From assembly GCF_018873765.1 (NCBI RefSeq), contig NC_057925.1, forward strand, positions 8,195,568 to 8,259,567: a stretch of DNA of 64,000 nt. The letters are read 5' to 3'. Below the pieces are notes generated by a model. It was given only the letters and a program-made list of their open reading frames with translations. It did no database searches and was not told the DNA's origin. Position 1 is the first letter of the stretch; every line of letters starts with the position of its first letter. Shown here in pieces: positions 16,201 to 61,400 of the stretch. The DNA is from Telopea speciosissima (Eukaryota; Streptophyta; Magnoliopsida; Proteales; Proteaceae). The translations under genes were made by a program, and so were the position numbers.

Positions 16201-16934
16201 TTTTGACTGTCAAGGAGTAATCTTATCCTTTGGTTTATCTTGTTTTGGCTCTGTTCTTTCTAGCAAGTAAAGGTCAAGTCAGTTGATAGTGATGAGGATG
16301 ATGAAGACATTCTCGAACTAAAAGACCGACTGGCAGCATATAATCTTGAATCTTCACCGGAACTATCAACAACAGGTGGGACCAAACATTGATCCTTCAA
16401 TTAATTCAGTTGAATAATTTTGCATTCCTCCCATGATCACACTGCAACTTCATCGTTCCTCTTTTCACAGCCATGGAAACTGAAGCAACCCAAGTACCAC
16501 CAGCAGGGGAGAAGAAAGAACCAGGCAAGAGGGGTGCCAGTAAAACCAATGCAGCCACGAAGAAGCGGGGACAGGCGAACAAGCAAGCACAGACTCTGTT
16601 GAATCAGAAGCTAATAACTGAGGTTCTGAAGCCTGCTGAAAATGCAGGGGTGTCACCTGAGAAGAAAGTGAGGAAGATGAGAGCTTCCCCATTCAACAAG
16701 AAGAGTGGTTCTGTGTCGGACAGGGTTGGAGGAACGAGCAGCAATATTGAGGAATTGAATTCTGATTCTGAAAATACCGATGGGGATAGTGATGTTGAGG
16801 TTGATGTTGTGCCGGCTCCAGCTAGGCCAAGACCGCAGAGGGCTAACCGAGGGCAGTCCAAGTATGTGATAAGTGATTCAGAGAGCGAAGAGGATCCTGC
16901 TGATGATTCTGATTTTGAAGAGGATGAAGATTGA
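10294..16934 (+). CDS. TOP2: DNA topoisomerase II, intact 19-exon gene
   Basis: Type IIA topoisomerase, a nuclear ATP-dependent enzyme that passes one duplex through another and untangles chromosomes. Exons: 10294-10866, 11397-11689, 11778-11844, 11942-12212, 12286-12485, 12586-12795, 12900-13013, 13102-13212, 13321-13485, 13606-13947, 14062-14195, 14286-14643, 14750-14936, 15022-15071, 15162-15590, 15699-15894, 16079-16143, 16264-16375, 16471-16934. All introns are GT-AG and all phases agree, giving 4341 bp and about 1446 aa (Arabidopsis TOP2 is about 1470). Visible motifs: GHKL ATPase FDEILVNAADN (residues 84-94) and GRNGYGAKL; TOPRIM EGDSAKALA (460-468) and DQDHDGSH with acidic residues 537, 539 and 541; active-site Tyr about 792 in ASARYVYT. 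The C-terminal tail is charged, with one METEATQVPPAGEKKEPGKR-type unit, then acidic DSESEED. No disabling change seen. The start is set by the conserved N-terminus and its match to copy 2. Confidence 0.96.
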
Positions 16935-17757: not shown

Positions 17758-18255
17758 AAAAATATTATGGTTGTGGAACATCATACATTATCTATTTGCA
17801 TATGCTGATCAATTTAGCTTTGTGAAAGGAATTGCTTCAATTACAGACCATGTAATGAACATAGTAAATAACACGACCAAGAATGCCAATCTTAAGATGC
17901 ATCTTGTGAAGAAACAACTTATACTGTTTGTGGATGCTTCAATTCTTAGACCACTAGCTAGAACAGTTTTTGATCAATGTGAACTCTCACATGAGTTCCT
18001 GGAAAAAGGTTTGTAGCTAGCCTTTATGTTGTTTCTTTTCATATGTGGGGATAGGTTGTGATGCTTAATGACATTTTTGTGTTGCAATGAGGTGGGTGGG
18101 AAGAACTCTAATGAATGCATAGAAATGTCAAAGCATAGTTGGGTGGGAAGAACTCTGAAAAATGCATAGTTGTCAAGGCGACAAGATGAGGCGTTGGAGG
18201 GACGTCTAGGCGACAAGATGCCCACCAATGTGTTGCCTAGGCATGCAATAAAAGC
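17758..18255 (+). pseudogene. Broken TOP2 fragment: intron 3, exon 4, start of exon 5
   Basis: 17814-18009 translates to a shortened exon 4: FSFVKGIASIT, NHVM-like DHVMNIVNN, KNANLKMHLVKK, CELSHEFLEK; compare copy 1 VSFVNGIATIK, KNANLKAHVAKN, CELSQEFLKK. Two internal deletions remove about 36 bp and about 55 bp. Sequence before it resembles intron 3, and after it intron 4 (TTGTGATGCTTAATGACAT near 18056). An exon-5-like piece follows, GGTGGGAAGAACTCTGAAAA (18142-18161), then about 90 bp of AAGGCG/GGCGTTGGAGG sequence absent from the exons. That hybrid is the same module that forms the five-unit array at 49723-50412. It lies same-strand, about 0.8 kb after TOP2 copy 1. Confidence 0.85.
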
Positions 18256-32952: not shown

Positions 32953-34947
32953 ACATCAAATAGGGGAGATTTGTCTTTTCGACCCCTTCTTGTGAGCTGT
33001 ACACGGAATCTTTTGCCAAAATTAAATAAAAGCAAAAAAAAAAAAAAAGGTTGCCATTTGCTTGAAGTGGTGCCAGCTTCTTCTCTATTCTAGTCCCTAC
33101 CGTTTAGTTTTTTTTTTTGGCTTATTGGTTTCTACGTTGGGAAGTCAAACTGTGTTTCTTCTTTAAGCTTATATATAGACATATAGTATTACATTCACTT
33201 GTTTATCTCCCAGAAGCTAAGCTGGAAGGAGAGATCGAGTAGATATCCTGTTTTGAAGCATTTCTCTTTCTATGTGCTTTTTTCTACTTCCAAAATCCAA
33301 TCTGAGCTGCTCTACAACTGGTCTGCAAGAAGAGAAAGAAAAGGGCAGAGGTAAGCCCATTACTTATTTTCCCATTAAATACCAATTTTCTTCCTCTTTT
33401 TTATCTAATTAAGTTAAGGTTTCCAGGTATTGAACTAACCAAATTCATTCAGATTTTACCTCTTAGTTTCCTTGTTCTTTTAGTTCAATATCTGGTAACC
33501 TTAAGAGTCAGTCAATCCTACATATCAACAGTCAGGCTTGATCTCTCTTATCCACCAATCTCTGCCCATATTGAGAGCCAAATCTGACTATAAATCTGAA
33601 GATGTTCTGACAATTTTAAGCATTTTATCATGCACAATCCAACTGTTTTAGGGTAAGAAATCATATACATTCAAGATAACTGCCAATGTGATACAAGTTG
33701 AAACAACCCATTTATGAGAAAGACAAGATAGAGTTCCCTTAAGATCAAGAAAGGTAGTTCTAGGTAAAATTATATTTGTTGGATCAGTTTGAACATGTAT
33801 TCTGAAAATCCATTCCAGTTTTATCTGTAGTGGACAGTACAAAATCTCCTAATCTGTACAGGGCTTATGATATAGATCAGGATTAGCAATTATCAATTCA
33901 TGGAGTTCTTCTGCAACTTCATTTTGTCATCTGCTAAGCAGTGAGTACTTGAAAAGGATTAAAGAACATAGTTTTGTCTTCATTGTTGCATTGGTTCATC
34001 AAGTGTAAGAGTGTTTCCATTTGGGTCTTTTTTCTGGGTAAAATTTTCCATTTGGGTTTTTAATTACATAAGAATAAAAAAAATTAAGCCATCAAGTTCT
34101 ATAAATATATAGATATTTATAAATGTTTGAGGAGCTCCATGGTTATCTTAATTTGATTTTTGTAAGGACCAAAGATCAAAAGTCAAAACAAACAGAACGC
34201 CCAAAACTAGGTCTCTTTGCCTTGGTCAGTATTCATGTATAGAAAGTTTATTTACTTCAGCCATCATGGAAGCTTCCAAATGGTTGAGGCTTAATCACTT
34301 GAATTAAGTTGAATTCTTAGAGCGGTGACTTTTCGATGATCTTTTTCAATCTGAGCACAAATGAGGAAAATTATAACTGAATAATGCAAATACTACATTC
34401 TTCGAAAACAAAAGGCTGTATATTTTTCTAGAATTAAAGAAATGTATAACATTTTACCCAAAAAAATAAAAAGCTGAATTAAAATACCTTCTGTTAATTA
34501 TTTTTTACAGAGCAGAATAGTAAAATACAAGCATACCTTATATTTTCTGTGAAGGAGTAAATAATAAATTTAATTTCAGCTACTTAAGAATTTGTTCGCT
34601 GATGCTGTCTTTTTTATTCTTTGAGGGTGTCCTGGAAATATTATCAGTATTTTCCAGAATTATGCAAGTGATGTCTTCAAGTTTTTGTACTTCAAGAACA
34701 GTAATGAATTGGAAGCCCCTATTCATACTTTCTTCGCAAAAGATTTATCTAACAATAAGTTTTTCAATATTTCCTGTTTCAGGTGTCAGTTAGATAGACC
34801 ATATATAGGATTCTTCTACATCCCTTGCACATGCAAAAAACAAGTGACTGCTTACTAATTTGGTGAAGTTCTATTGGTCTTATACTCTTAGAGTTTCAAC
34901 TGTGAAGTGAATTTATAATGCAGAGTGTGCACAGTACTTCAGCAGAT
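32953..34947. other. Upstream region of the acyltransferase gene
   Basis: Possible untranslated first exon: TATATATAG near 33170, transcript-like CT-rich sequence to a donor CAGAG|GTAAGC near 33352, and an acceptor CTGTTTCAG near 34784. This is inference from splice-like signals only. No other gene is seen. Confidence 0.35.
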
Positions 34948-36357
34948 ATGGCTCATACTAATCCAGTGAAGGTACTGGAGCACTGCAATATCTCTCCACC
35001 ACCGGGATCTCTTGGAAACAAGATCCTTCCCCTCACCTTCTTCGACATTTTCTGGTTGCCTCCCTATCCCCTTGTGAAGGTCCTTTTCTTTTATGAATAT
35101 TCTTACTCTATGCACCACTTCAAAAATACCATATTTCCCAACCTTAAACACTCACTTTCCCTCACACTCCAGCACTTCTATCCTCTTTCTGGGCATTTAG
35201 TATGGTCTCAAGAATCATCCGAGCCCAAGTTCTGTTACATTGATGGAGACTCAGTCTGCCTAACCTTGGCAGAATCAGATGGTGATTTCCACCATATCTC
35301 AGGCAATCATGCAAGATATGTCAATCAATTCCATTGTCTTGTCCCTACACTTACCCCGTCATCCATGGTTGATCCTGAATTTTCAATTCCACTTTTGGGT
35401 TTGCAAGTAACAGTGTTTCCAAACTCCGGCATTTGCATCGGAGTAACTGCTAGTCATGTAGCCCTTGATGCTAGGACCCTTGTCCACTTCATGAAGTCAT
35501 GGGCATCAGTTTTTAGATCAGGAGTTGATTCATTGCCACTAGACTCTCTGCCATTACATAACAGGAATGTAATAAATGATCGGAAGGAGCTCAAGACGAA
35601 TTACTTGAATGAGATTAAAAAACTTAGAGGAACCATTGAACAAAAAAGCCTTAAGGTTTCAGACAACCATATAGTCCCATCGGACATTCTCCAGGCAACA
35701 TTTGTTGTGAACCAAAATGATGTCAAGCGACTGAGACAATGGATCTTGGCTAGACGCAAGAAGGATGAGGAACAGACATCAATTACCCCATCACATCTAT
35801 CAACATACTCTGTAATTTGTGCCCACACTTGGGTTTGCTCAATTAAATCAAGATCAATCGATGGTGCTGCTTCTAAGAGTCAAGATATGGAGGAGATCTT
35901 CGCCATTGCTATGGACTGCCGCATCAGGGATCGCCTGGATCCTCCAGTTCCAGAAACATATTTTGGAAATTGCTTTACAGTTTGTGTTGCAACAGTGAAA
36001 AGGAGTGACTTAATGGGAGAAGATGGGATCAGCATTGCAGCAGAAGCGATCACAAAGGCAATAAAGAAGCGATTGGATGATGGAGTGTTGAATGGGGCAG
36101 AGTACTGGATGTCTAAGGGGAGTGAAGCAGTAAAAAAGGAGCCTTTTGCAGTTGCAGGGTCACCTAGGTATAGAATATATGATACAGATTTTGGTTGGGG
36201 AAGGCCAAAGAAGTATGAATCACTCACACTTGGTGAGACAAGTATCTCCCTTTATGACTGCAAAGATGGAGAAGGCAGCCTGGAAGTTGGGGTGGCTTTA
36301 CCTAAGCTTCGGATGGATTATTTTTCTTCTATCTTTTATAAATTTCGAGAGACCTAG
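34948..36357 (+). CDS. BAHD acyltransferase, phenolic/flavonoid-glucoside malonyltransferase group
   Basis: Single-exon gene of 469 aa. It is expected to transfer an acyl group, probably malonyl from malonyl-CoA, to a sugar hydroxyl of a phenolic or flavonoid glucoside in the cytosol; the exact acceptor cannot be read from sequence. Motifs: catalytic HXXXD as HVALD (His about 170) in TASHVALDARTL; structural DFGWG at about 414 in DTDFGWGRPKKYE; and YFGNC in PETYFGNC, marking the anthocyanin/phenolic-glucoside malonyltransferase clade. The N-terminus MAHTNPVKVLEHCNISPPPG matches that clade, so I start at 34948. An in-frame ATG at 34918 would add ten residues. Length and motifs are normal, with no lesion. 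It stands alone between transposons; a spliced leader upstream is possible. Confidence 0.93.
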   Translation: MAHTNPVKVLEHCNISPPPGSLGNKILPLTFFDIFWLPPYPLVKVLFFYEYSYSMHHFKNTIFPNLKHSLSLTLQHFYPLSGHLVWSQESSEPKFCYIDGDSVCLTLAESDGDFHHISGNHARYVNQFHCLVPTLTPSSMVDPEFSIPLLGLQVTVFPNSGICIGVTASHVALDARTLVHFMKSWASVFRSGVDSLPLDSLPLHNRNVINDRKELKTNYLNEIKKLRGTIEQKSLKVSDNHIVPSDILQATFVVNQNDVKRLRQWILARRKKDEEQTSITPSHLSTYSVICAHTWVCSIKSRSIDGAASKSQDMEEIFAIAMDCRIRDRLDPPVPETYFGNCFTVCVATVKRSDLMGEDGISIAAEAITKAIKKRLDDGVLNGAEYWMSKGSEAVKKEPFAVAGSPRYRIYDTDFGWGRPKKYESLTLGETSISLYDCKDGEGSLEVGVALPKLRMDYFSSIFYKFRET

Positions 36358-40820: not shown

Positions 40821-41680
40821 TTATCCTTAATACCCTCTTAAACCCTCACTTGCTTGCCGCTTCTCTCTCTCTATCGCTCTCTCCCTGACCATCTCTCCTC
40901 ACCGCCATGGCCGGAATCAAGAAGTTCCCATTACAGACCAGCAATAACGCCAATATCCCAAGCTGGAATTCCATGGCACCCTCTAGCAAGACCATCGAAG
41001 AAATCTACACAAAGAAGAATCCAATTGAACATATCCTTCTCCGACCTGACACCTACGTTGGATCGATCGGGAAACGCCCTCAGAATCTCTGGGTCTACGA
41101 AAGAGGGGAAATGGTCTACCGCAACGTCAATTACGTCCCTGGTCTCTACAAGATATTCGATGAAATCCTCGTCAATGCCGCCGACAACAAACAGCGTGAC
41201 CCATCCATGGATTCAATCAAGGTCGATATAAATGTTGAACAGAACTGTATCAGTGTATATAACAATGGCGAAGGTATTCCGATCGAGATCCACCAGAAGG
41301 AAGGGGTTTATGTGCCGGAATTGATTTTTGGGCATCTTTTGACTAGCAGTAATTACGATGATGCAATAAAGACGACGACTGGTGGGAGGAATGGATATGG
41401 GGCGAAGCTAACTAATATCTATTCTTTGGAATTTGTTATCGAGACTGCAGATGGTAAGAGGAAGAAGAAATATAAACAGGTAAGAAATATTGAATCTTTA
41501 CTATTGATTCTTGCTTCTTCTGATCTGATTCTTTCAATTTACTCTAAAATTTTGGATTTTGGGTTTGGGACCTCTGCTTCATTTCTGTGGTGTTCTATAT
41601 TGTCCAATGGCATCATCTCCTGGTTTGGGAGTGCAATTTTGTATTTCTTGGATTAATCCATCGTTGCTGTCTTAAAAAGA

Positions 41681-41850
41681 GGGTGGGCCTTGGTGCAACG
41701 GTAAGATTGCTCCATTGTGACCAAGTGGTCACAGGTTTAAGTCTAGAAATAGTCTCTCTGTGAAAACAAGGGTAAGGCTGCATACATCATGACCTTTCCT
41801 CCTCAGACCCCAGAGTTGCGGGAGCCTAATGCACTGGGTATGCCCTTTTT
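41681..41850 (+). mobile_element. Au-like SINE in intron 1 of TOP2 copy 2
   Basis: Begins GGGTGGGCCTTGGTGCAACG, has box A (TTGGTGCAACGG) and box B-like GGTTTAAGTC, contains the AGGGTAAGGCTGC phrase typical of Au SINEs, and ends CCCTTTTT. Copy 1 intron 1 has the uninterrupted site (TTGCTATCTTGGGC near 11105). The flanks TTGCTGTCTT and TTGCTTCCTT look like a decayed target duplication. Confidence 0.85.
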
Positions 41851-42054
41851 GCTTCCTTGGGGGCTTCAGAAAGAATTTTGTCTTCTAATGTTTCTTGGGT
41901 TTATGGGTGCTGGTATTCTTGTAGGTGGATTTTCTCTGGGTTTTGCTTCTTGTAATATTTCTGATGTGCATCTTGTTTCTTCTCATTAAGATTAGGATTA
42001 ATTCCGGTTATAACTATAGTATTAAATCTCGTTTTGGAAAGCCATTTCGGTCAA

Positions 42055-42415
42055 ATCGAAATTTCCGAGATACTAAAATTCCACCGAAATATTGTATTTT
42101 TTCTATGAGTTTGCTTAGCCATTTTTTGGTGTAAAATGCCAAAATGATCGAAATATCGAAACGAAATGACCAAAATTTCTGAATGAGATGGAAATTTTCG
42201 AAATGTTGCATTTTTTTTCTTTTTTGAATGGGATGGAAAAATTTCCGAGATTCTGAAATTTTGCCGAAATATTGTATTTTTTCTGAGTTTTGTTTGGCCA
42301 TTTTTTGGGTGTAAAATGCCAAAATGATCGAAATATCGAAACGAAATGACCAAAATTTCTGAATGAGATAGAAATTTTCAAAATATTGCATTTTTTTTTT
42401 CATTTCGACATAGCA
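42055..42415. repeat. Tandem duplication of about 180 bp in intron 1 of TOP2 copy 2
   Basis: Two units (about 42055-42235 and 42240-42415), each carrying AAATGATCGAAATATCGAAA and TTCTGAATGAGATAGAAATT-like sequence. Absent from copy 1. AT-rich with CGAAAT words; no coding meaning despite open frames on the reverse strand. Confidence 0.8.
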
Positions 42416-45400
42416 TCTCATTTCGTCCTAGCCAAAATATCCGAAATTTCAGCAAGATTTTGAACTATGGTTGAAACTTCTTATTCTTTCTGTTTTTATA
42501 GAGGTGTTTGTCTTCATTGTTGCATGATCTACAATTTAACTTCTACAAAGTTTAATAAGTATCTCCATTATGAAGGTATTTTCAAACAATATGGGGAATA
42601 AATCAGAGCCTGTCATAACCAAGTGCGAGGAAGGAGAGAACTGGACTAAGATTTCATTCAAGCCTGATTTGGCTAAATTCAACATGACTCACCTTGAGAA
42701 TGATGTTGTTGCCTTAATGAAAAAGAGGGTGATTGATTTAGCTGGATGCCTAGGTAAGACAGTTAAGGTTGAATTGAATGGGCAGCAGGTACCTGTAAAG
42801 TCATTCCTTGATTATGTCGATCTCTACCTTCAATCTGCCTCCAAAACCAGGCAAGATCCCCTCCCAAGGTTATAGTAAGTCAATTCTGTGTTTTTTTAGT
42901 TCATACAATCTCATCTGCCTGATTATTTTATCAGGATGGTGGAGAAAGTTAACGAGAGGTGGGAAATATGTGTGAGTCTAACTGAAAAACAGCAGTTTCA
43001 CTTCCAACAGGTAAATCCCTAAATACTCTAATTGAAATACATGAAGAGTTAAAATACAAAATTATAGTCTTGGAATTACAAACACATCCTTAAATTGCAT
43101 TGGTTGTTTTTCAGGTCAGCTTTGTGAATGGGATTGCCACCATCAGGGGTGGAACTCATGTTGAATATGTTACTAATCAGATCACAAACCATGTGATGAG
43201 CATAGTAAATAAGAAGAGAAAAAATGCCAACCTTAATGGTTTTGCAGTGAGGAACCATTTATGGGTCTTTGTCAATTGTCTCATTGAGAACCCCGCATTT
43301 GATTCTCAGACCAAAGAGTACTTGACTACTTGGCAAACTAGTTTTGGATCGAAATGTGAACTCTCACAGGAGTTCTTGAAAAAAGGTTTGTAGCCTCAGT
43401 TATTGTTTACTCTAAGAGGGAACGGATTGTGATGTTCAATGGCATCTTTGTGTTGCAGTGGCTAAATCTGGAGTGGTGGAAAGTTTGCTTTCTTCGGTAG
43501 ATAACCAGAGCCAATATCTTAAGAGAACTGACGGAGCAAAGAAACCAAGAATTACAGGTATTACCAAGCTTGAGGATGCTAATGATGCTGGAGGGTGGAA
43601 CTCTGAAAATTGTACGTTGATCCTGACAGAAGGAGATTCGGCTAAGGCTCTTGCAGTAAGTAGTTGTGATCCAGTTAGTCGCCCCCGTAAGTATATATAA
43701 AAACTGGTGTTAGTCTCTTCAAAGAAATTTTTTGATCAAACTTAAGTTTTTACAGATGGCGGGCATATCTATTATTGGCCGAAACCACTATGGAGTGTTT
43801 CCATTGAAGGGTAAGCTGCTCAATGTGAGGGAAGCAAACCCTAAACAGATCATGGATAATGCTGAAATCCAAAACATCAAGCAGATTCTTGGTTTGCAGC
43901 ATGGAATGGTGTATAACAGTGTCAAATCACTGAGATATGGCCATTTAATGATAATGGCTGATCAGGTTTGGATCCTTGGACCATCATTCTTTTTTCTGTA
44001 ATCCTGCTCTGAGGATTTCATATTTTTTTTATTTTTAATCCTTTTTTGGCCAACTAATTATTTCCTTGCTGTTTCAGGATCATGATGGATCTCATATCAA
44101 GGGGTTACTGATTAATTTTATCCATTCATTCTGGCCTATCTGCTTAAAATTCCATCCTTTTTGGTGGAGTTTGTACCACCCGTTGTGAAGGTTGATATCA
44201 ATCATTTAAGCAACTGTCAGCCATTTTATTTACTTGAGTTATCAAAGACAGAATGCATCTAATGCCTGTATTCGTAATCTTTTACAGGCAACTCACAGAA
44301 ATGGAAAGGTCTTATCCTTCTATTCAATGCCTGAGTATGAATCATGGAATGAAAGACTGAGGGGAAATACCATTGACTGGTCTATCAAGTACTATAAGGT
44401 TTGACTTTACAAATTTCAAGGAGCCCAACTGGATTCCTAACTTGGAAATGTCTGCTTAGGCTTTCCATTCTCATTATAATCATATTTGGCTCTCTGGGCA
44501 GGGGTTGGGTACTAGCACATCAAAAGAAGGCAAGGAGTATTTCAAAGACCTTCACAAGAACAAGAAAGATTTTTTGTGGGTAGATGAGCAAGATGGAGAA
44601 GCCATTGAGCTTGCATTCAGCAAGAAGAAGATTGAGGCAAGGAAGAACTGGATCAGGCAATTTAAGGTTAAACATCTTAGTAATCCACATTGATAATTTT
44701 GAAAAAGAGAAGATCTCAATAACAAAATTTGCAATTTTGAAATTTTATAACCTCTAAATTCTGATGAAGCTGTTATTTCTGGATTTGCAGCCTGGTACTT
44801 ATCTTGATCCAAAGGAGAAGCTCATAAAGTACAGTGACTTTGTTCACAAGGAGCTGAAACTGTTTTCCATGGCTGATCTGCAAAGATCAATCCCGTCTAT
44901 GGTGGATGGTCTGAAACCAGGCCAACGAAAGATTCTGTTCTGTTCTTTCAAGAGGGGTTTTGTTAAAGAAGCAAAGGTTGCCCAGTTTTCGGGTTATGTA
45001 TCTGAGCATTCAGCTTACCACCATGGTGAGGCGAGTCTCCAAAGCACAATAATTGGAATGGCACAGGATTATATTGGAAGCAATAACATAAATCTTATGA
45101 AACCAAATGGCCAATTTGGCACCAGGCACCAGGTGTGTGAAAAAATATTAGGCCTGTACTTGTTTAACATTAGCTCTTCCTTAATTCTTCCCTCATCATA
45201 ATTGGGTTTTGAAAAATGTTAATCAGCTGCAATTTCCCTGTTGTAGGGAGGCAAAGATCATGCGAGTGCAAGGTACATTTACACTTGTCTATCTCCTATC
45301 ACACGGTTCTTGTTCCCCAAGGAAGATGATGTCCTACTTGACTATTTGAATGAAGATGGACAGTCTATTGAACCCACTTGGTAAGTTAAGCGCAGAGCAG

Positions 45401-46768
45401 GTTGATAGAAAGTTTTATGGGAAGCTGTCAAGAATATCTGTTGCTTACAGTTATGCATTGTGCAATTCAGGTACATGCCAATTGTCCCTACGGTTCTAAT
45501 CAATGGAAGTGAAGGAATTGGGACTGGGTGGAGCTCTTTCATTCCCAATTACAATCCAAGAGAGATTATTGCAAATATCAGGAACTTGTTGAATGATGAA
45601 CCTATGGAACACATGGATCCATGGTACAAGGGATTCAAGGGGTCAATTGAGAAAACATCAACAAAGGAAACGGGGGTGAGCTACACTGTCAGTGGGATCA
45701 TAGAGGAAATCAAAAAGACAACTATCAGAATCACAGAACTACCCATCCGGAGGTGGACCCAGGATTATAAGGAGTTCTTGGAGTCTATAATGACAAGAAA
45801 TGACAAAATCAAGGACACATTCATCAAGGTATCTTTCTATCTAGACTTGAAAGTTCCATTGGGTCCCATTTTTTTATTCCATGGGCATGAGGCTTGTCAG
45901 AGAGAGAGTTCTCACATCTCTGTTGGTTGCAGGATTACAAGGAGAACAATGATGACATGACTGTTGATTTTGAAGTTAACATGTCCGAGGAAAACTTGAT
46001 GGCAGCCAAGCAAGAAGGCCTGTTGAAAAAGTTTAAACTCACAACTACAATCAGCACAAGCAATATGCACCTTTCTGATGCAAAAGGTGTAATTAAGAAA
46101 TATGACACCCCAGAGCAGAGTAAGAATTTTACACTTCATTTACATTGTGGAATATTACACTTCATGTTTCTTTTTTAGTATAATTTTTTTTCCCCCGTCA
46201 ATGCAGTTCTTGAGGAATTCTTTCATTTAAGGCTTGAAATCTATGAGAAAAGAACGGTAATAGCTATCTTCATCTCCCCCTCCTTTCCCCCCCCCCCCGG
46301 CGCCCCAAAGGTTATGATAAAATTATATAAACCAACTTTAATATTGCTTGCAGAAAGAATTGGTGAAAAATATTGAGATGGAGCAGTTGAAACTGGCCAA
46401 CAAGGTCAGGTTTATACTTGGGGTTGTAAATGGGGAGATCATTGTGAGCAACAGGAAGATAATTGATTTGTTCCAGGAGCTGCACAAGAAAGGTTTCACT
46501 CCATTACCAAAGAAAGGCAAGACTGTTGAAGCGGCAGGGGCAACTGAAGTTGGAGAAGAAAATGAAGAAAACTCAGAGATAGCCGGAAGCAAGGGAGTAC
46601 GAGCAAGTGACTATGATTATCTTCTATCAATGGCTATTGGAACACTGACCCTGGAGAGCGTTCAGGAGCTCATTGCTAACAAGCATCAGTTCGAAAGTAA
46701 AGTGGATGAGTTGAGGAAGGCTACTCCAAAGTCATTGTGGTTGAAGGATCTTGAAGCACTTGAGAAGG

Positions 46769-46851
46769 AACTGGTGCTGTGCCTGGCTTCAAAGGAACGC
46801 TAACTGGTGCTGTGCCTGGGCACAGGTACACGCCCAGGCACAGCACCAGTT
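46769..46851. mobile_element. Inverted-repeat insertion at the exon 15 splice donor of TOP2 copy 2
   Basis: Arms 46802-46821 and 46832-46851 are perfect 20 bp reverse complements (AACTGGTGCTGTGCCTGGGC) around a 10 bp loop. An 18 bp direct copy of the arm lies at 46769-46786. Copy 1 has AAGGAACTTGAT|GTATGCC at this point; copy 2 has the insertion instead, so the donor is gone. Confidence 0.8.
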
Positions 46852-47658
46852 AGAGTTCTTTCTCCCATTCTTTTATTATCTTTTGTTGGATCTAGTTTCT
46901 TTTGCCTAATTTGTTCTTGTTATTTCAGGTGAAAGACAAGAATTACCAGACACAGGAGACAAGGAAGGAGTTTAAAAGGCAAGTGATGAAAGAATCTGGC
47001 ATGAAAGTACCAAAACAAGCTCCAAAAAATCCATGGAAGAACAATACAAAGAAATCCAGTCCTACTGCCGAATCTGCTGCAGCATCCAATAGTTCTGCAA
47101 TAGACACTGGTGTGTTAAAAGAATCCCATCTCTCTCGTTCTCTAATATTCACTATTTTTATAGTCAATAGTTATTACTGTTACTAATAAGGCATGCATCT
47201 CTGTGATGGAAACATACACTGAATTATGATGTCTCTGAACCTGTATTGGATTCTTTACTGACAGAAAATGTTCCTGAGGTGGTGAAATCCAAAGGTAGAG
47301 CAGGAACAAGGAAAGCTCCTTCTAAAAAGGTTTGATTCCCTGGTTCTTATTAAATATTTTATTGGATGTTACCGATAATACTCATTTTTTGACTGTCAAG
47401 GAGTAATCTTATCCTTTGGTTTATTTTGTTTTGGCTCTGTTCTTTCTAGCAAGGAAATGTCCTGTCAGTTGATGATGATGAGGATAATGAAGATGTTATT
47501 GAACTAAAAGACCGACTGGGGGCATATAATCTCGAATCTTCACCGGAACTATCAACAACAGGTGGGACCAACATTGACACTTCAATTAATTCAGTTGAAT
47601 AATTTTCTCCTCCCATGATCACACTGCAACTTGTCCTATTATTCCTCTTTTCACAGCC

Positions 47659-49440
47659 ATGGAGACTGAAGCAACCCAAGCACCACCAGCAGGGGAGAAG
47701 AAAGAACCAGGCAAGAGGGGTGCCAGTAAAATCAATGCAGCCGCGGCGGCCATGGAGACTGAAGCAACCCTAGTACCACCAGCAGGGGAGAAGAAAGAAC
47801 CAGCAAAGAGGGGTTTCAGTAAAATCAATGCAGCCACGAGGTAGCCGGGACAGGCAGCCTTGGAGACTGAAGCAACCCAAGTACCACCAGCAGGGGAGAA
47901 TAACGAACCAGGCAAGAGGGGTGCCAGTAAAACCAATGCAGCCACGGCGGCCATGGAGACTGAAGCAACCCTAGTACCATCAGCAGGGGAGAAGAAAGAA
48001 GCAGGAAAGAGGGGTTCAAGTAAAATCAATGCAGCCACGAGGAAGCCGGGACAGGCGGCCATGGAGACTGAAGCAACCCAAGTACCACCAGCAGGGGAGA
48101 ATAAAGAACCAGGCAAGAGGGGTGCCAGTAAAATCAATGCAGCCACGGTGGCCATGGAGACTGAAGCAACCCAAGCACCACCAGCAGGGGGAAAGAAAGA
48201 ACCAGGCCATAGGGGACAGGCTGCCATGGAGACGGAAGCAACCCAAGCACCACCAGCAGGGGAGAACAAAAATAGGAGTGCCAGTAAAACCAATGCAGCC
48301 ACAAGGAAGTGGGGACAGGCAGCCATGGAGACTGAAGCAACTCAAGCAACACCAGCAGGGGAGAAGAAAGAACCAGGCAAGAGGGGTGCCAGTAAAACAA
48401 ATGCAGCCACAAGGAAGTGGGGACAGGAGGCCATGGAGACTGAAGCTACCCAAGCACCACCAGCAAGGGAGAAGAAAGAACCAGGCAATAGGGGTGCCAA
48501 TGAAACCAATGCAGCCACGTGGAAGTGGGGACAGGCGGCCATGGAGACTGAGGCTACCCAAGCACCACCAGCAGGGGAGAAGAAAGAACCAGGCAATAGG
48601 GGTGCCAATGAAACTAATGCAGCCACGTGGAAGTGGGGACAGGCGGCCATGGAAACTGAAGCTACCCAAGCATCACCAGCAGGGGAGAAGAAAGAACCAG
48701 GCAACAGGGGTGCCAATGAAACCAATGCAGCCACATGGAAGTGGGGACAGGCCGCTATGGAGACTGAAGCAACCCAAGCACCACCAGCAGGGGTGAAGAA
48801 AGAACCAGGCAAGAGTGGTGCCAGTAAAACCAATGCAGCCACGAGGAAGTGGGGACAGGCGGCCATGGAGACTGAAGCAACCCAAGCACCACCAGCAGGG
48901 GTGCAGAAAGAACCAGGCAAGAGTGGTGCCAGTAAAACCAATGCAGCAATGTGGAAGTGGGGACAGGAGGCCATGGAGACTGAAGCAACCCAAGCATCAC
49001 CAGCAGGGGAGAAGAAAGAACCAGGCAATAGGGGTGCCAATGAAACCAATGCAGCCACATGGAAGTGGGGACAGGCGGCCATGGAGACTGAAGCAACCCA
49101 AGCACCACCAGCAGGAGTGAAGAAAGAACCAGGCAAGAGTGGTGCCAGTAAAACCAATGTAGCCACGAGGAAGTGGGGACAGGCGGCCATGGAGACTGAA
49201 GCAACTCAAGCACCACCAGCAGGGATGAAGGAAGAACCAGGCAAAAGTGGTTCCAGTAAAACCAATGCAGCCACGAGGAAGTGGGGACAGGCGGCCATGG
49301 AGACTGAAGCAACCCAAGCACCACCAGCAGGGGAGAAGAAAGAACCAGGCAAGAGGGGTGCCAGTAAAACCAATACAGCCATGAGGAAGCGGGGACAGAC
49401 GGCCATGGAGACTGAAGCAACCCAAGCACCACCAACTCTG
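47659..49440 (+). repeat. Coding minisatellite: about 18 units of 72-108 bp in the last exon of TOP2 copy 2
   Basis: Units start at 47659, 47752, 47860, 47953, 48061, 48154, 48226, 48325, 48433 and then every 108 bp to 49405. The consensus starts METEATQAPPAGEKKEPG and continues KRGASKTNAATRKWGQAA. Early spacings are 93, 108, 93, 108, 93, 72, 99, 108 bp, all multiples of three. Copy 1 has one unit (16473-16570). Unit 3 starts TTG and is preceded by the TAG at 47842. Later units differ little from each other, so the right-hand ten arose most recently. Confidence 0.95.
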
Positions 49441-49722
49441 TTAGATCAGAAGCCTGCTGAAAATGCAGGGGTGTCACCTGAGAAGAAAGTGAGGAAGATG
49501 AGAGCCTCCCCATTCAACAAGAAGAGTGGTTCTGTGTTGGGCAGGGTTGGAGGAATGAGCAATATTGAAGAATTGAGTTCTGCTTCTGAAAGTTCCGATG
49601 GGGAGAGTGAGGTTGAGGTTGTTGATGTTGTGCCGGCTCCAGCTAGGCCAAGACCGCAAAGGGCTAACAGAGGGCAGATCCAGTATGTGATTAGTGATTC
49701 AGAGAGCGAAGAAGAAGCAGCA

Positions 49723-50412
49723 ATGAAACATCAAAGCATAGGTCTTACTAAGCTTGAGGATGCAAATCAGGTGGCTGGGAAGAACTCTGACAAATGCATA
49801 GTTACTAAGGCATTGGAGGGGCGCCTAGGCGAGAAAGCGCCCACCTATGCGTTACCTATAATGAATCGTCAAAGCATGGGTCTTACTAAGCTTGAGGATG
49901 CAAATCAGGTGGCTGGGAAGAACTCTGACAAATGCATAGTTACCAAAGTGTTGGAGGGGCGCCTAGTCGAGAAAACGCCCATCTATGCATTGTCTATGAT
50001 GAATAGTCAAAGCATGGGTCTTACTAGGCTTGAGGATGCAAATCAGATGGCTGGGAAGAACTCTGGCAAATGCATAATTACCAAGGCGTTGGAGGGGTGC
50101 CTAGTCGAGAAAACGCCCACCTATGCGTTGCCTATAATGAATCATCAAAGCATGGGTCTTACTAAGCTTGAGGATGCAAATCAGGTGGCTGGGAAGAACT
50201 CTGACAAATGCATAGTTACCAAGGCGTTGGAGGGGCGCCTAGTTGAGAAAACGCCCACCTATGCGTTGCCTATAATGAATCGTCAAAGCATGGGGCTTAC
50301 TAAGCTTGAAGATGCAAATCAGGTGGCTGTGAAGAAATCTGACAAATGCATAGTTAACAAGGCATTGGAGGGGCACCTAGGCGAGAAAACACCCACCTAT
50401 GAGTTGCCTATA
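49723..50412 (+). repeat. Five exact 138 bp tandem units derived partly from TOP2 exon 5
   Basis: Units start at 49723, 49861, 49999, 50137 and 50275 and encode MNRQSMGLTKLEDANQVAGK, NSDKCIVTKALEGRLVEKTP, TYALPI. The first half mirrors TOP2 exon 5 (GITKLEDANDAGGKNSEKC). The second half matches the AAGGCGTTGGAGGGGCGCC sequence seen beside the TOP2 fragment at about 18175-18250. They follow directly after SDSESEE and replace the normal acidic end of the protein. Confidence 0.9.
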
Positions 50413-50586
50413 CATGCAGACCTTATACGTGCAGAGCCGATACATGCAGTGCCTATACGTGCAGTATATGATGGATTTGGCTCCTCTTCAACTCTCACAT
50501 CTCCCAATTCTTGCCCAACCCTACCTGGGAACACAACACGTGGAGAGGAAGGATCCAATGGCTCTTACCATTTTCTTCCATTTTAG
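50413..50586 (+). other. Novel open tail after the arrays, partly from a local inverted repeat
   Basis: 50478-50545 (CTCCTCTTCAACTCTCACAT, then CTACCTGGGAACAC) is about 80 percent alike to the reverse complement of about 52783-52847. The last 58 codons of the open frame are thus non-TOP2 sequence ending by chance at TAG 50584. Confidence 0.6.
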
Positions 50587-54382: not shown

Positions 54383-57300
54383 TTAAGTACTAAGGTTTCT
54401 TCTCGCAGTTTCCATTTTTAACAATAGATCTCTAATTTCCACTTCCATCCTCATCTTCATATTGAAGTACTCGAGGTGTGCTCTCTCTAGACTCTGTAGT
54501 TCTTCTAGCTTTTGTCTGCGCCTTGTCTCAGCCTCACCCAAACATAACTTTGTAATTCGACTTGCATACTCTTTTTCAATATTTTCATTCTTAGCAACTG
54601 CAATGCGTTTCAGGCCTTCAGCCTCTCTTCTTGCATCATCTGCGCGTGCTTGGAACATTTTTGCCTCTGCCTGTTTGATTCTCACAATGCTCTCCAACTC
54701 ATCTATGACAGGTCTCTTTTCAGCACTTTGCAGGAACTGCAAATCCTCATTCCGCCGATCTACCCGATCCCAATCCAAGCTAGGACCACCAATGCTGCCA
54801 TTTTCCAGTCGTGGAGTAGCCTTTTCAGTTGAAACAGACGTTAACCACATAGCTTCTTGGTTTGGTCCCAGAACCCTATTGCTTACCTCTGGGTTCCTAT
54901 GAGGTTGCTCCTTCCCAGATGTAGAGGTGTTGGCACACTTGGAATCACTATCTGCAATTAGAGAGGAAAGTAACAGACGTAAACAGCAATGTCTTGGTCT
55001 CAAACTACAAAGTAAATATAAACATTGCAAATGACGAAAAGACAGGTTTGTCTGCAGCTGCAAACACTTATTCAAACCTTGAGCAATGATGCCAGACAAG
55101 CAGGTACAAGATTGAAGACCACAGAATCCAGATCACAGCACAGTCCATGAAGAAGCATCTTTTTGGATGTTTTGCAGGTCAAAAGTTCTTTTGCGAACAC
55201 AGTGGTGGTTATGCAGTGGTTATCACCTAATGGTATAAGTTGTATTAAAATTCTTTTTTAAGTTAGAATTTTCTAGTCGAGGGATGAAAGTACGTTATTT
55301 TCTCATGCATTTCAAGGTTTTGAGGTGGATTCCTCATCAACATTTTTAGTGTATGCAATGTTTTTAATTAGCTGTGCTTGTACTATAGCCCAAAACCCAT
55401 AAAATCCTTCTATTCCAAGAGCATGAACCAAATAGATACTCCTGGCAGTCATCTATGAACATTGAGAAGTTGACAATCTAGTCAGAACATCATTATGTTG
55501 CGGTTGCCCTAGCAAGTGCTAAATTCTGTGTGGATATAGTGTATATATCACAATGATCTCATGAGAAGCCCTCATGTTGCACACCAGTTAAATTGTGTAG
55601 CTGATTTAGCACCTGATACAAATCTCCTGAAACATACCCAGAGATCTGTAGCCATGAAACTGATAGAACCTACCTGTATCTTTAAAAGCCCCTTTATTTA
55701 TAATAGAAGAGGGAGAGAAAAAATACAGAACTGCCCCTACATAGCCGACTCTATTTAATTAGAGTCGGTTATAGGGGAAAATAACCAGAAAGACTAAAAT
55801 ACCCCCCATGGCAATTAATACAATATTTTAACAGGTTTCATATTGGAATTTTGGAAGTCACAACAATTCCATTATGATAAGTAGTTGAAAGTGATAAACC
55901 CCCCCAAAAGCCAATTTATCCAGAATTCCAGATTCAGTTTTGATTCTGAATCAAAACCCTTTCATAACCTTTCCTGTTTAACTTCACTAGTAAAACCAGT
56001 AATCTGGTTATTTACAAGTTTTGCCAATACATTTAATTGTTGACCCACTTAATACTTGTGTGGGCCCATTAGTGAACCCAACAGGGTTTTCCAACCCCGG
56101 GATCACATCAAATGGTATCAGAACCGAACCTGAGGCTACATCAATGAGGTTGATCCATATGATTTACTACTTTCAATTAGAGTTGTTTCCGTACGCTGCA
56201 AACAGGACTTTGTGATCTCCAAACAAGGCTTCTTGATTTTAGGATAAGTTGTCAAAAGAATGTTGATAATATTATCCGCTTCTGTAATGAGATGTCGAAC
56301 ATTGTAGAAGCTTCAGAAAACAGATCAGAGGTGGCAGAAAAGATGGACATCGAAAGTGACGATCAAGCTGAAGTAAACGGTCTGATCAAGATTGAATCTG
56401 AGGAATTGATTGGCGGTCCGATTGCATATGTGAAACCTCATGATCATATTCCAATCAGAAAGATATTGTTTTCCAATGATCGCCTGGAGATCGTAGCGGT
56501 TGATCGTGAGATGCGCTGGATCATCACCCCATCAAAACCGAAGATTTTGGATCAAGTAACGATGGAAGCCAGTGAAGTGAAAGCCATTCCCCAACATGAG
56601 TTTGTTCTTCCACACAATTTTCCAGACATGGATGCAACCTAAAGCTTCATATTTTCGATTTTATTCGAGTTGCAAACAAGGAGCAGCTAGACCCCTTTCG
56701 AGTACTTTTATTAAAGCCCTTCAACAGAACTCAGGGTCGAATTTTTTTAACACTAGGGGAATTGATGCAGGAATAGTTCTTTGGACCCGGACGAACCTGT
56801 TTGAGAATTCCAGCCGAGAACCAGGTCCAAATTGGGATTTGGGTCTAGTAAGTATAATTAGATATTTATTTTCTTTAGGATGATTACATAATCTTCTTAT
56901 TTTTTAGAAGTTTAGCTATGTAGGATATTTGGTTTCCTAGGTTGAGCTGTTCTTAGTTTCCTAGTTAAGAGTTTCTAAATTTTAGTTAGTTGTCTTTCAT
57001 TATATGTATCCTTGGATTTACCAAAAATTGGAGATTTGATAATGGATTGAGTTTGAGATTGTAGTGGCGCACAAACAGCCACTCATGATTGAGGACTGTC
57101 TCTCTCATTTCCTCTTCTTTCTTCTTCATATTATGGGCATAAGATCACCACTCTGGGTGACCTGAACTCTAGAAGCTCTCCCAGAAATCTTGTTCTGTTG
57201 CGAGAACCTAAGTCTATGCAGAGACCTGGTCCTTCTTCTACCATTACATCTGGTTTCAGCAGTTCATTCTTCTCCTTCTTGGTTGCTGTTCGGGTGGGTA

Positions 57301-60300
57301 TTGGTAGCATTCACCCCAAAATCTCAGTTTCAGTAAAGCACCAACAAAGGAGATATCTCCAAACCAAGATCTGGTTTCCCACCTTTGGTTGCACCTGGAG
57401 GTAGAAGACGAGTTCTCCTCTTCAACAATTTGTTAGTTTCATAATTTTATCTCCTCAATTTCCACATTTGCCCCTCTACTTCTCTTATCCTCTTCAATCC
57501 ATATTTTAGCTTTGCAACCAAGTCTTAGTGATTTCAGAACAATATCATGCCGATAGAAGTTTTAGTGGATTCTGGATTGAGTCCACAGGCCTGATAGGAG
57601 AAGCCACTCACAATAGAGACCAAGGAGAAAATCCAAAGAGCTCTGAAAGATGCTGAATATCTTATTGAGGACAATGTCACATCATACATAGCTCATTTAA
57701 TGGAATATCAAGAACCCCCAATTTCCATCAGGTAACGCAAGGTAAGTCATAAGCCACCTAAAGTATTTCATGACTTCTAACGACATAACAGATGAGATTC
57801 ATAGAGCAAAAGGAGCACTCGTGTCACAAACAACTGGCCTTTGTAGGGACATAGAAGTGATGAGAACAGGAGTTGCATCTATACAGGCAAGGACCGATTA
57901 AAGGACATCATTCAGTTAACTTGAAGAATATCAGGAACCAACATTTTCCACAGGATAAAAAAGACAGGACAGAAAGAATCCAACAAGATATAATCCAATA
58001 TTTTTATGAGATAATAGCTATACTATAAAACTATGGGAAAAAATTGGCCCGTAAGTGGAAAGAAAACATGATGCATACAGGTAAAATCTATCACATAGTT
58101 CAATCCACCATAAAAGTCACAAAAAAAAAAGAAAAACAAGAAGGAAGCATTTGAAAGGAAGTAATGCACACAGAATCAATGCACACAGAATCACAAAGTT
58201 ATAAATATGTGCACAAAATAGTCAACTGTTCACAGAATGACAGAGAATACAACATACCAAATTTCAAACAATGAAATTCTTTGTTTGCAGAAGCTAGAGA
58301 ACTCACCAGTCAGGAACTCCATCATTTGATTATAAATGTCTGAGAGATTGGATTTATTTTTTTCTAGTCTTGCCTGCATCTTCCCAGCGACATCATGGAG
58401 TTGTTTTCCTCGCACATCATTACTTGCAGAAAAAATCCTCTTAACATATTCAAGTTCCTTGGAAAGAGTCTCAGCTTTCCATTCCTTTGCACAAGTCTTG
58501 AAAACTTCTTTCACAAAGCCAAACAGCTCAGAAGGGTGATCACAAGCAACACAGTGGAACCGCATCTCAGTTGTTCCTTGAGCCCCAGTGACACTACGCC
58601 CATTTTTTATATAAGATTCCCGTAACCCACAACTCGTATGGCACCAATGAAGGCAGAAGTCACACCCTACCCAACTACAGGTGTTGGATGCCATATCAAA
58701 TTTTGAACAAACAAGGCACATACAAGCACTACAGAAGCCACTTTTCTGTGCACAAATCTTGCAATCACATTCATCCACTGGCAGGGGATTCCTGCAAGCA
58801 AGATTTCTGCACTTCAAGTTAAGAAAGATCTCAGCTAAATCAGATGAAGGAATATCCTTAGCTTGGTAAAGAAAATCTTGAAGTCCAGTTTTAAGAGCCA
58901 CCAAGATCTCCAACTGAGCACGATGAGACTTTGATAGCATATCTAAAGTAAGGTCAGATCTACTCTGCAGTGCTTTCTGAAATGTACACAATTGCCCATG
59001 CTTATCTCCATTCACTATCATCTCACGAGCACCCTCCTTTAAACATGCTATGGACTGTTCTGTCATTTCATGAATTCTCCTGGCCATTACTTGTAGTGGC
59101 TCCGAAATTATCATGGCAATAATCCTCTCTACGAAACCAGTTCCACCTACAACAAGCTGTTCTATCTCCTTTTGACTACTACTACTACGAAATAAACTGC
59201 CGGAACCTTTCTCTCTCATTACCCGTTTCTTATCCTTACTGTATTCTGATCTAGCTTCAAGAGAACCAACACTATGTGTAGGGGACCTGATTTCATCTTG
59301 GTTCCTTGATGGTACACCTGGAAGCCGTCTTGGCAGACTTGACTGCCGATCCAAGGCAACAGGTACTCCAAAGGTTCCCTCAGAAATCTTAAGATGATTT
59401 TGTCCTTGCATGGTTTGATGATTTAAAGTGCCTTGTGATGACTGAGATGCATTGCCATTTAGTAAAATCCTTTCATACAACGGAACATCCTTGCGTCTAG
59501 GCTCATTTGACGGCTGTCCCTGCCAGGAGCCATGAGAAATTTGATCAATTCCCTTAAATATAGGATGACTGCCAACTGATTGTTCATAGTTGTCAAATGA
59601 ATTCTGTGTGAGAGAACAGCTGGGGTTATGAACGAATGGCTGGGAACCTGAAAATGAAATTGATGCAGCATATCCATCAGACCCTGTCCAAAATGTGGAA
59701 GGTACAGACTGAATGCCCCTTATATGACTGGGGGAACCAGGAGCTGACTTCGGATCATGGGAATCAAGTGCTAATGAAACATTTGGCAAGCCAAGAGAAA
59801 GCTCAAGTGGCTCCATTTTAAGCTTATTAACTGCAGAATTGTTTGTCTTCTCCTGTCTTGTTGCAGCAGGAATAGAGAACAACTCAAAACCCCTACAGCT
59901 TGGTCCTTCCATAGCATCTTCTCTTCTGGCCATTGTATCTGCTTCTATCCATCGACCATCTTCCATGGAATTGGCTTCGTCAGATGAGGAAACTGCTAGA
60001 CTTTTTCCTTTGTCCTTGGAATTTTGAGTTGGCTCATCAGTTATGAGGTTCAAAGTCACCTTAGGTGTTCCATTTTCCTTAGCAACTTCCTTATTCGAAT
60101 TAAGCCAATCAATGTCCTCCACCTCAGCTTCCAAATCTATTCCTTTGCCCGCTTTCCACTTCTCTTCCAGAGGCAATGGCTTCTCAGCATTATCATCCTT
60201 GATTGCTTCCTCTCTACCATGGTCATCTAGCATGTGGTGGGAGGGGCCAGCAGACTCAGGATCTTCCCTTGCACTTGCTTCTTCTCCACCCACATTACCT

Positions 60301-61400
60301 GCAGCTGTTGCCTCTTTGTTCACACCCAATTCATTATTAGAGTTTTTCTGACGTTCAGGAACCTCATCCATTTCCTTTACCACCTCTACCACAGCCCCTA
60401 CCACAGTCTCCCGTGTCCCATCCTCTGGTTCTCCATCACAAACATCTTCCTCATGGAGCTCCATCTTCTCTTCAGCTGATGATTTCTCTCCTTCCTCTAA
60501 ATCCATATCTGACTCAACCTGGTGCTCACTCTCCCCTTCCTTGTGATTCTCAGGGCTTGCTTCTCCTGAAGCTTCAGCATTTTGATTGGGTTCAGATTCA
60601 GGTCTGGCTTCAGGCTTAGGTTCAAGCTTAGGTTCAGGTTCAGGTTCAGGTTCTTCATGTTGGGGTTTGGGTTTAAGTTCAGCTTCAAGAGCTGGTATGG
60701 TTTCGGCTTCAGGTTGCAGTTCCCCTTCTTCAATCTCACTGCTGCTCCCATTCCCTCCTTGCACTTCTTTGTTCTTCTTCATATCAACACTCTTAGACTG
60801 TTCCCCACCAGAATCCTTCGACCAAGAAGGCGACTTCAGAACATCTCTGGAACCCTGCGGCGACCTTACATTCCCTCTTTCCTCAGAAGCAACTCTGCTC
60901 CCTCTACCAGAGTCGACATTAAACCTCGTATCTTCGTCAACATCTTTGCTTCCACTAAACCTCCGCCACGATGAAACACTGTCTTCTCGCCGTAAACGGT
61001 CCCTCTCCGACCTAAACCCTTTGGGAAACTCCCGCCTAGAGCCAGAGAAGCTTTCAGACCGGTGAATCCTGTCACCAACATAGGGATTCCGAGGTGAAGA
61101 AAATGACATATCCCTATCTCCACAATCCCGATAACGATCAAAGTTCTTTCTCCTCTCGAAGCCATCAGAATCAACATCCAAACGCTTCCGCAATGATCTC
61201 GAGATCTCACGATCATCGTCTATTGATCTGTCATACCCAGACGACGAAGATAAACCCTTACGTCCATTTTCAGCTTTTGAATAGAAACGCCGATGCGATG
61301 ACGAACGGTCTGGATCTTGATCTCTTCTCACCCAATCTTTGCAAACCCCTCTCTCCCCAACCGAATCGAGATCATCAACATAGGATCTCAATCTTTTCAT
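54383..61400 (-). CDS. OBE4: OBERON4/TITANIA-like PHD-finger protein
   Basis: Two coding exons on the minus strand: 61400-58307 and 54951-54383, joined in phase 1 (CTGACTG|GTGAGT ... TTGCAG|AT) over a 3355 bp intron, giving about 1220 aa. The N-terminus MKRLRSYVDDLDSVGERG, a long Arg/Ser/Asp-rich region, and an acidic EPEPEPEPKLEPKPE repeat (about residues 245-270) are as in OBERON4. The OBERON PHD block lies at about 855-990 (CRNLACRN, CDCKICAQKSGFCSACMCLVC, WVGCDFCLHWCHTSCG, HCVACDHPSELFGFV). The C-terminal 190 residues are the coiled coil for OBERON dimers (ARREAEGLKRIAVAKN, EKEYASRITKLCLGEAETRR). Family role: nuclear chromatin-associated protein needed with OBE1/2 to maintain root and shoot meristems. 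No lesion seen. The first ATG lies shortly after stops in a 61401-61600 leader that may contain an intron. Confidence 0.92.
54952..58306 (-). other. 3.4 kb intron of the OBERON4-like gene with retroelement debris
   Basis: 56113-56124 TGGTATCAGAAC resembles the initiator-tRNA-Met primer-binding site of LTR retrotransposons (usual TGGTATCAGAGC), and the sequence before it ends GGGATCACATCA like an LTR end. 56292-56642 is a plus-strand 116-codon frame (MSNIVEASENRSEVAEKMDI...) with no family I recognise. 56756 onward (AGGGGAATTGATGCAGG) resembles a polypurine tract and LTR start, and 56900-57200 has gypsy-LTR-like text (TTTCATTATATGTATCC). Not assembled into one element. Confidence 0.5.

Follow-up and report, generated by a model that had tools for sequence, protein, structure and literature searches.

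An in-frame minisatellite in the last exon of a topoisomerase II duplicate of Telopea speciosissima, with the single-unit paralog preserved nearby

The last exon of one of two neighboring topoisomerase II (TOP2) genes of Telopea speciosissima contains 18 in-frame copies of a C-terminal unit that the other, intact gene has only once. The array is a coding minisatellite, a known kind of element, and the locus displays its growth with the starting state preserved. Both genes lie in the same orientation in the window, the 64-kb stretch analysed here (C10:8195568-8259567) out of a genome of 823 Mb. Copy 1 spans 10294-16934 and lies approximately 31 kb upstream of copy 2, which spans 40907-50586. 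We observe directly the anatomy of the locus, the lesions of copy 2, the likeness of both of its repeat units to TOP2 and the coding signature of its exons 1-18. Our best explanation, which we regard as probable, is that the array was born in frame in a TOP2 duplicate that was still coding, that the tail was fused with a TOP2 remnant, and that copy 2 was disabled late.

We built the exon models of both copies from splice sites, giving 19 exons each. Copy 1, on the plus strand, is intact. Its spliced translation of 1446 aa has no internal stop; residues 27-1186 align with a TOP2-beta structure and residues 31-1168 with another TOP2 of known structure, which we take to be the human and the yeast enzyme, respectively. 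Five TOP2 domains exceed the Pfam cut-off (HATPase_c, DNA_gyraseB, Toprim, TOPRIM_C, DNA_topoisoIV), and the ATPase, transducer, TOPRIM, TOPRIM_C and DNA-cleavage domains of a type IIA topoisomerase are found in a single chain. Copy 2, also on the plus strand, keeps 19 of 19 exons according to the exon table and the alignment with copy 1, and has three lesions that are disabling or doubtful. Outside the array, aligned blocks of the two copies share about 85-91% identity. Exon 19 measures 2930 nt in copy 2, taken to the stop at 50586, versus 464 nt in copy 1. A processed pseudogene is ruled out by the 18 of 18 introns kept in copy 2.

The window holds several other features. Intron 1 of copy 2 has a 180-bp tandem duplication (42059-42398) with no counterpart in the copy 1 alignment. 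An open frame at 5213-6589 with reverse transcriptase, RNase H and integrase zinc-binding domains is part of a retrotransposon, and a plus-strand frame at 34918-36357 encodes a Transferase-family (PF02458) protein. On the minus strand, two frames within 54383-61400 carry an Oberon coiled-coil and an Oberon PHD, and are perhaps exons of one OBERON-type gene.

The first array occupies 47657-49434 on the plus strand. The last exon opens with CC-ATG-GAR-ACT in both copies, and the unit-start pattern, ATGGARACKGARGC, gives 17 ATG starts in copy 2. The first nine are at 47659, 47752, 47953, 48061, 48154, 48226, 48325, 48433 and 48541; the other eight are at 48649, 48757, 48865, 48973, 49081, 49189, 49297 and 49405. 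A unit with a TTG start at 47860 brings the total to 18. Elsewhere in the window, the pattern matches once, at 16473 in the intact exon 19 of copy 1, whose single unit spans 16473-16580. The 17 spacings are 93, 108, 93, 108, 93, 72 and 99 bp, followed by ten of 108 bp, and 17 of 17 are divisible by three. Tandem Repeats Finder independently detects 108 bp x 10.8 at 48274-49434 (92% matches, score 1895), which excludes chance. Thus the original prediction was accurate in one unit for copy 1, about 18 for copy 2, ten spacings of exactly 108 bp among spacings that are all multiples of three, and an unexpanded paralog some 30 kb away. Head-to-tail units of minisatellite length lie within an exon with lengths divisible by three. 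Its proposal of minisatellite birth in a coding exon, with that paralog as the reference, is supported by the single unit in copy 1.

At its distal end, the last full unit retains the KRGQ 3' end of copy 1. Unit 18 is shortened to ten codons (METEATQAPP), followed by the ancestral exon-19 tail (TLLDQKPAEN...) at 49435-49721, on the plus strand. The tail is homologous to 16593-16891 of copy 1, with the blastn match stopping at 49712, and three of its three internal indels relative to copy 1 are multiples of three. The net charges of the first 17 units sum to +17 and range from -1 to +4 each, with +4 for the copy 1 unit; a strongly basic tail is unsupported by these values.

The array had been predicted to keep an open frame. 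This is inexact: there is an in-frame TAG in unit 2 (47842-47844, plus strand), where the equivalent codon of unit 4 is AAG. Because of this TAG, the long open frame, of 908 aa, does not begin until 47860; it ends at 50586. As a bypass, we considered splicing that would join exon 18 to the CAG ahead of unit 3, and rejected it on reading the sequence by eye, where the phases mismatch and no pyrimidine tract is visible. Judged from the sequence, the TAG and the upstream frameshift would argue against translation of the array. The only Pfam match in the array frame is SoPB_HTH, within the second array, with an E value of 6.5e-4 and a score of 20.2 bits, below the cut-off of 27; we take it as chance and not as a conserved domain.

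The predicted extent of 47659-49440 captured the first array and missed a second one. Directly behind the tail, at 49722-50412 on the plus strand, Tandem Repeats Finder reports 138 bp x 5.0 in frame with the first array, and this frame continues to 50586. The 138-bp units differ from each other at 7-17 positions. In its first part, (I/L)TKLEDAN..GKNS.KC, the unit is similar to exon 5 of TOP2, which belongs to the TOPRIM region. This match is short: blastn gives 76% over 78 bases with an E value of 3e-11, in a comparison of the DNA downstream of copy 2 with exon 5 only, and at the protein level four stretches have E values of 7e-4 to 5e-3. For the second part, the match is to 18137-18247, downstream of copy 1 (70-74% over 103-111 bases).

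The latter segment adjoins a decayed TOP2 exon 4-5 remnant, and we delimit the whole, which includes sequence similar to the 138-bp unit, at 17810-18247 on the plus strand. Positions 17810-18118 match the copy 1 protein in tblastn with 31% identity (E 1.8e-9), and two exon-5-like pieces can be distinguished by eye inside the remnant. In the alignment, copy 2 lacks an equivalent of the end of copy 1's exon 19 (DPADDSDFEEDED). In the simplest reading, an exon 4-5 remnant would once have been present downstream of both TOP2 copies, and a rearrangement in copy 2 would have fused it to exon 19.

Comparison of the units gives hints on how the first array grew. Leaving out the short U18, whose placement in the unit tree rests on 36 bases and is uninformative, the nearest units to that of copy 1 are U1, U3 and U5, each with 6 differences. 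A further pair is formed by U2 and U4 (7 differences), and U3 and U5 differ by 4. Among the distal units, the closest pairs are U12/U15 (2 differences), U9/U10 (3) and U9/U14 (4). In the unit tree, which carries no support values, U9, U10, U11 and U14 form one cluster, and U12, U13, U15 and U16 form a second. Such close pairs, some of them non-adjacent, fit repeated local duplication, as expected of unequal exchange. The array probably grew by an exchange mechanism of this kind.

The junctions of the first array show weak microhomology, which counts against our best explanation. At the distal junction, CAAGCAC precedes the tail in copy 2. Copy 1 has CAAGCAC immediately before the tail and CAAGTAC within the unit, so the homology at this junction is imperfect. 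At the proximal junction, GGGACAGGCG abuts the first bases of exon 19 with little homology.

The gene upstream of the array is broken, as had been claimed. Aligned to copy 1, copy 2 shows a 1-base deletion in exon 7 at 44134-44136 (plus strand; the exact base is ambiguous in a C run), and the resulting frameshift leaves copy 2 without an intact frame through the catalytic core. At this spot, a third TOP2 fragment, L009, is ungapped relative to copy 1, with poor alignment of L009 just upstream. A fold-back (inverted-repeat) insertion is located at the exon-15 donor (46774-46852, plus strand, left edge approximate in the alignment), with perfect 21-bp arms at 46801-46821 and 46832-46852. The stretch AACTGGTGCTGTGCCTGG of the fold-back occurs again just upstream, at the end of exon 15 of copy 2. 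On a small matrix made from copy 1's own 18 donors, the exon-15 donor scores -2.0 in copy 2 versus 3.3 in copy 1. The best GTs near this exon in copy 2, at 46826 and 46849 (score 4.0), both lie past an in-frame TAA at 46801-46803. With these lesions, copy 2 is probably non-functional at present.

Exons 1-18 of copy 2 carry signs of a coding history, which the original prediction did not mention. dN/dS between copy 1 and copy 2 is 0.37 (bootstrap 0.31-0.48) over 1282 of 1292 codons, the ten others being left out for a gap. Indels divisible by three make up 6 of 7 in exons 1-18 versus 10 of 38 in introns (Fisher p 0.005), a count that leaves aside the shifted end of exon 15 and in which the poorly aligned intron 1 makes for lower certainty of its indels. 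In the exon translations of exons 1-18, which do not display intron-split codons, we saw no nonsense substitution; the stop that closes exon 7 there is a product of the frameshift. With half of the copy 2 branch neutral, 5.3 would be expected; with a tenth, 1.1.

To this we add comparisons with outgroups. The two outgroup proteins have the same residue at 41 of the differing sites; they share it with copy 1 alone at 24, with copy 2 alone at 9 and with neither copy at 8. The outgroup alignment covers 109 of the 161 amino-acid differences between the copies, with 52 lying outside. With 24 changes on copy 2 versus 9 on copy 1 at the 33 sites where the outgroups side with one copy, copy 2 is the faster-evolving copy; a looser count assigns 47 and 23 changes, respectively. 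L009 (C10:49794000-49803900) contains, at 5365-6330 on the minus strand, parts of TOP2 exons 7-10 with introns present; it lies about 41 Mb away on the same contig and is about 85% identical to both copies. The genome-wide search used the Pfam cleavage domain as its query. Since L009 covers parts of exons 7-10 only, it is uninformative on exon 19. With L009 as an outgroup, copy 2 has 5 synonymous and 5 nonsynonymous codon changes of its own and copy 1 has 2 and 2, too few to demonstrate constraint on copy 2.

Along the gene, dS varies, with 0.22 in exons 1-6, 0.10 in exons 7-9, 0.047 in exons 10-12 and 0.21 in exons 13-18. We also notice 200 consecutive identical columns (13806-14005 versus 44991-45190), whereas many other stretches differ by about 10-20%. 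The low dS in exons 10-12 and these identical columns suggest gene conversion between the TOP2 copies around exons 10-12, which would lower averages such as dN/dS. We read copy 2 as a gene that coded through most of its history and was disabled late.

On this basis, we propose the following course of events. A plant TOP2 gene would have been duplicated, with about 31 kb between the copies. Within copy 2, a tandem duplication would have taken in the first ~107 bases of the last exon, which code for part of the C-terminal tail, and repeated unequal exchange or replication slippage may then have raised the number to 18 in-frame units while the copy was mostly coding. At the 3' end of exon 19, a rearrangement would have joined the tail to the nearby decayed TOP2 exon 4-5 fragment, and the fused piece would have been amplified in frame to 5 x 138 bp. 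Finally, the copy would have been disabled late by the deletion in exon 7, the TAG of unit 2 and the fold-back insertion at the donor of exon 15. We infer the fusion of the tail with the remnant and the order of these events. Taken as a whole, the original interpretation holds in the minisatellite birth, and lacks the signs of coding history and the second array partly derived from exon 5.

In the strongest alternative, copy 2 was already a pseudogene when the array expanded, and the multiples of three are an accident of one founding 108-bp unit and a few indels. Substitutions among the units are close to neutral. Among 60 variants relative to the consensus, counted over codons present in at least half of the units, there are 40 nonsynonymous and 19 synonymous changes and a single nonsense change; under random mutation with an assumed transition bias, fractions of 0.69, 0.27 and 0.04 are expected, and the excess of synonymous variants has a P of 0.26. 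Units 8-17 alone have 20 nonsynonymous, 12 synonymous and no nonsense variants. The array thus fits neutrality, or the loose constraint published for new protein repeats, and the caution that openness alone is no proof of selection was right. The unit substitutions reveal no purifying selection, so growth after loss of function is compatible with them; the stop in the second unit and the exon-7 frameshift also favor it. The tail behind the array has a dN/dS of 0.55 (21 differences, 93 codons). Against this alternative, the array lengths of 93, 108, 72 and 99 bp and the three tail indels are all multiples of three, although three or four events may suffice to explain these lengths. The array frame contains 1 stop (about 2.4 expected, P 0.30, not significant), compared with 7 and 41 in the remaining two frames, and the lesions in exons 1-18 are few for a long pseudogene phase. 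We therefore regard growth after loss of function as a minority reading, rather unlikely next to array birth in a still-coding duplicate.

It is also conceivable, but with a distinctly low probability, that copy 2 is a functional TOP2 paralog, now or until very recently, with an enlarged tail of about 18 METEATQ and 5 TOPRIM-exon peptides. If so, the tail could alter the recruitment of the enzyme to chromosomes, and its length could vary between individuals. The strict version of this idea, a copy 2 that still works with a greatly extended C-terminal tail and whose exon-7 deletion and TAG are assembly errors or private alleles, seems to us improbable. Only two frame lesions occur in about 6.8 kb of exon sequence with all 19 exons kept, the donor scores are near those of copy 1 for most introns, and dN/dS is below 1, as a working gene would have. 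However, the frameshift, the TAG and the replaced exon-15 donor must then all be wrong or bypassed, and residues shared by the outgroups are altered, for example by K449W in the TOPRIM exon, a change on copy 2 at a residue common to both outgroups. An assembly artefact is hardly credible, since the units differ by up to 20 bases and the array is shorter than 2 kb, which makes it unlikely that identical units were over-expanded or collapsed in the assembly.

Intragenic (coding) tandem repeats, or exonic minisatellites, are a known class, with FLO1, MUC1 and DRD4 as examples. Like them, the copy 2 array lies in frame within an exon, has a unit length that is a multiple of three and shows patterns of local duplication. 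Unlike them, the gene here is TOP2, an intact single-unit paralog is preserved, and the host copy looks disabled. Judged by title and the start of the abstract, none of the published matches listed describes a TOP2 array. The case is instructive in its specific gene, in the preserved single-unit reference and in the recycled piece of a TOPRIM exon, by which the last exon of copy 2 has apparently been extended with a part of its own catalytic region.

As for the enzyme, copy 1 resembles eukaryotic and plant TOP2 (type IIA) in its catalytic core and five Pfam domains, and copy 2 has the same 19 exons; it departs from plant TOP2 in the expanded last exon and the lesions. The role of the C-terminal exon in plants is partly understood: in the study of Arabidopsis topII-1, a last-exon insertion removes the last 82 residues, and the plants are viable with meiotic interlocks (PMC6279386). 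Given this effect of C-terminal loss, an intact copy 2 in some individual or species would permit a direct test of the effect of tail length. New copies of protein repeats diverge under strongly relaxed purifying selection, according to a further study (PMC5120217). That study concerns proteomes, whereas here the host copy itself seems to be dying.
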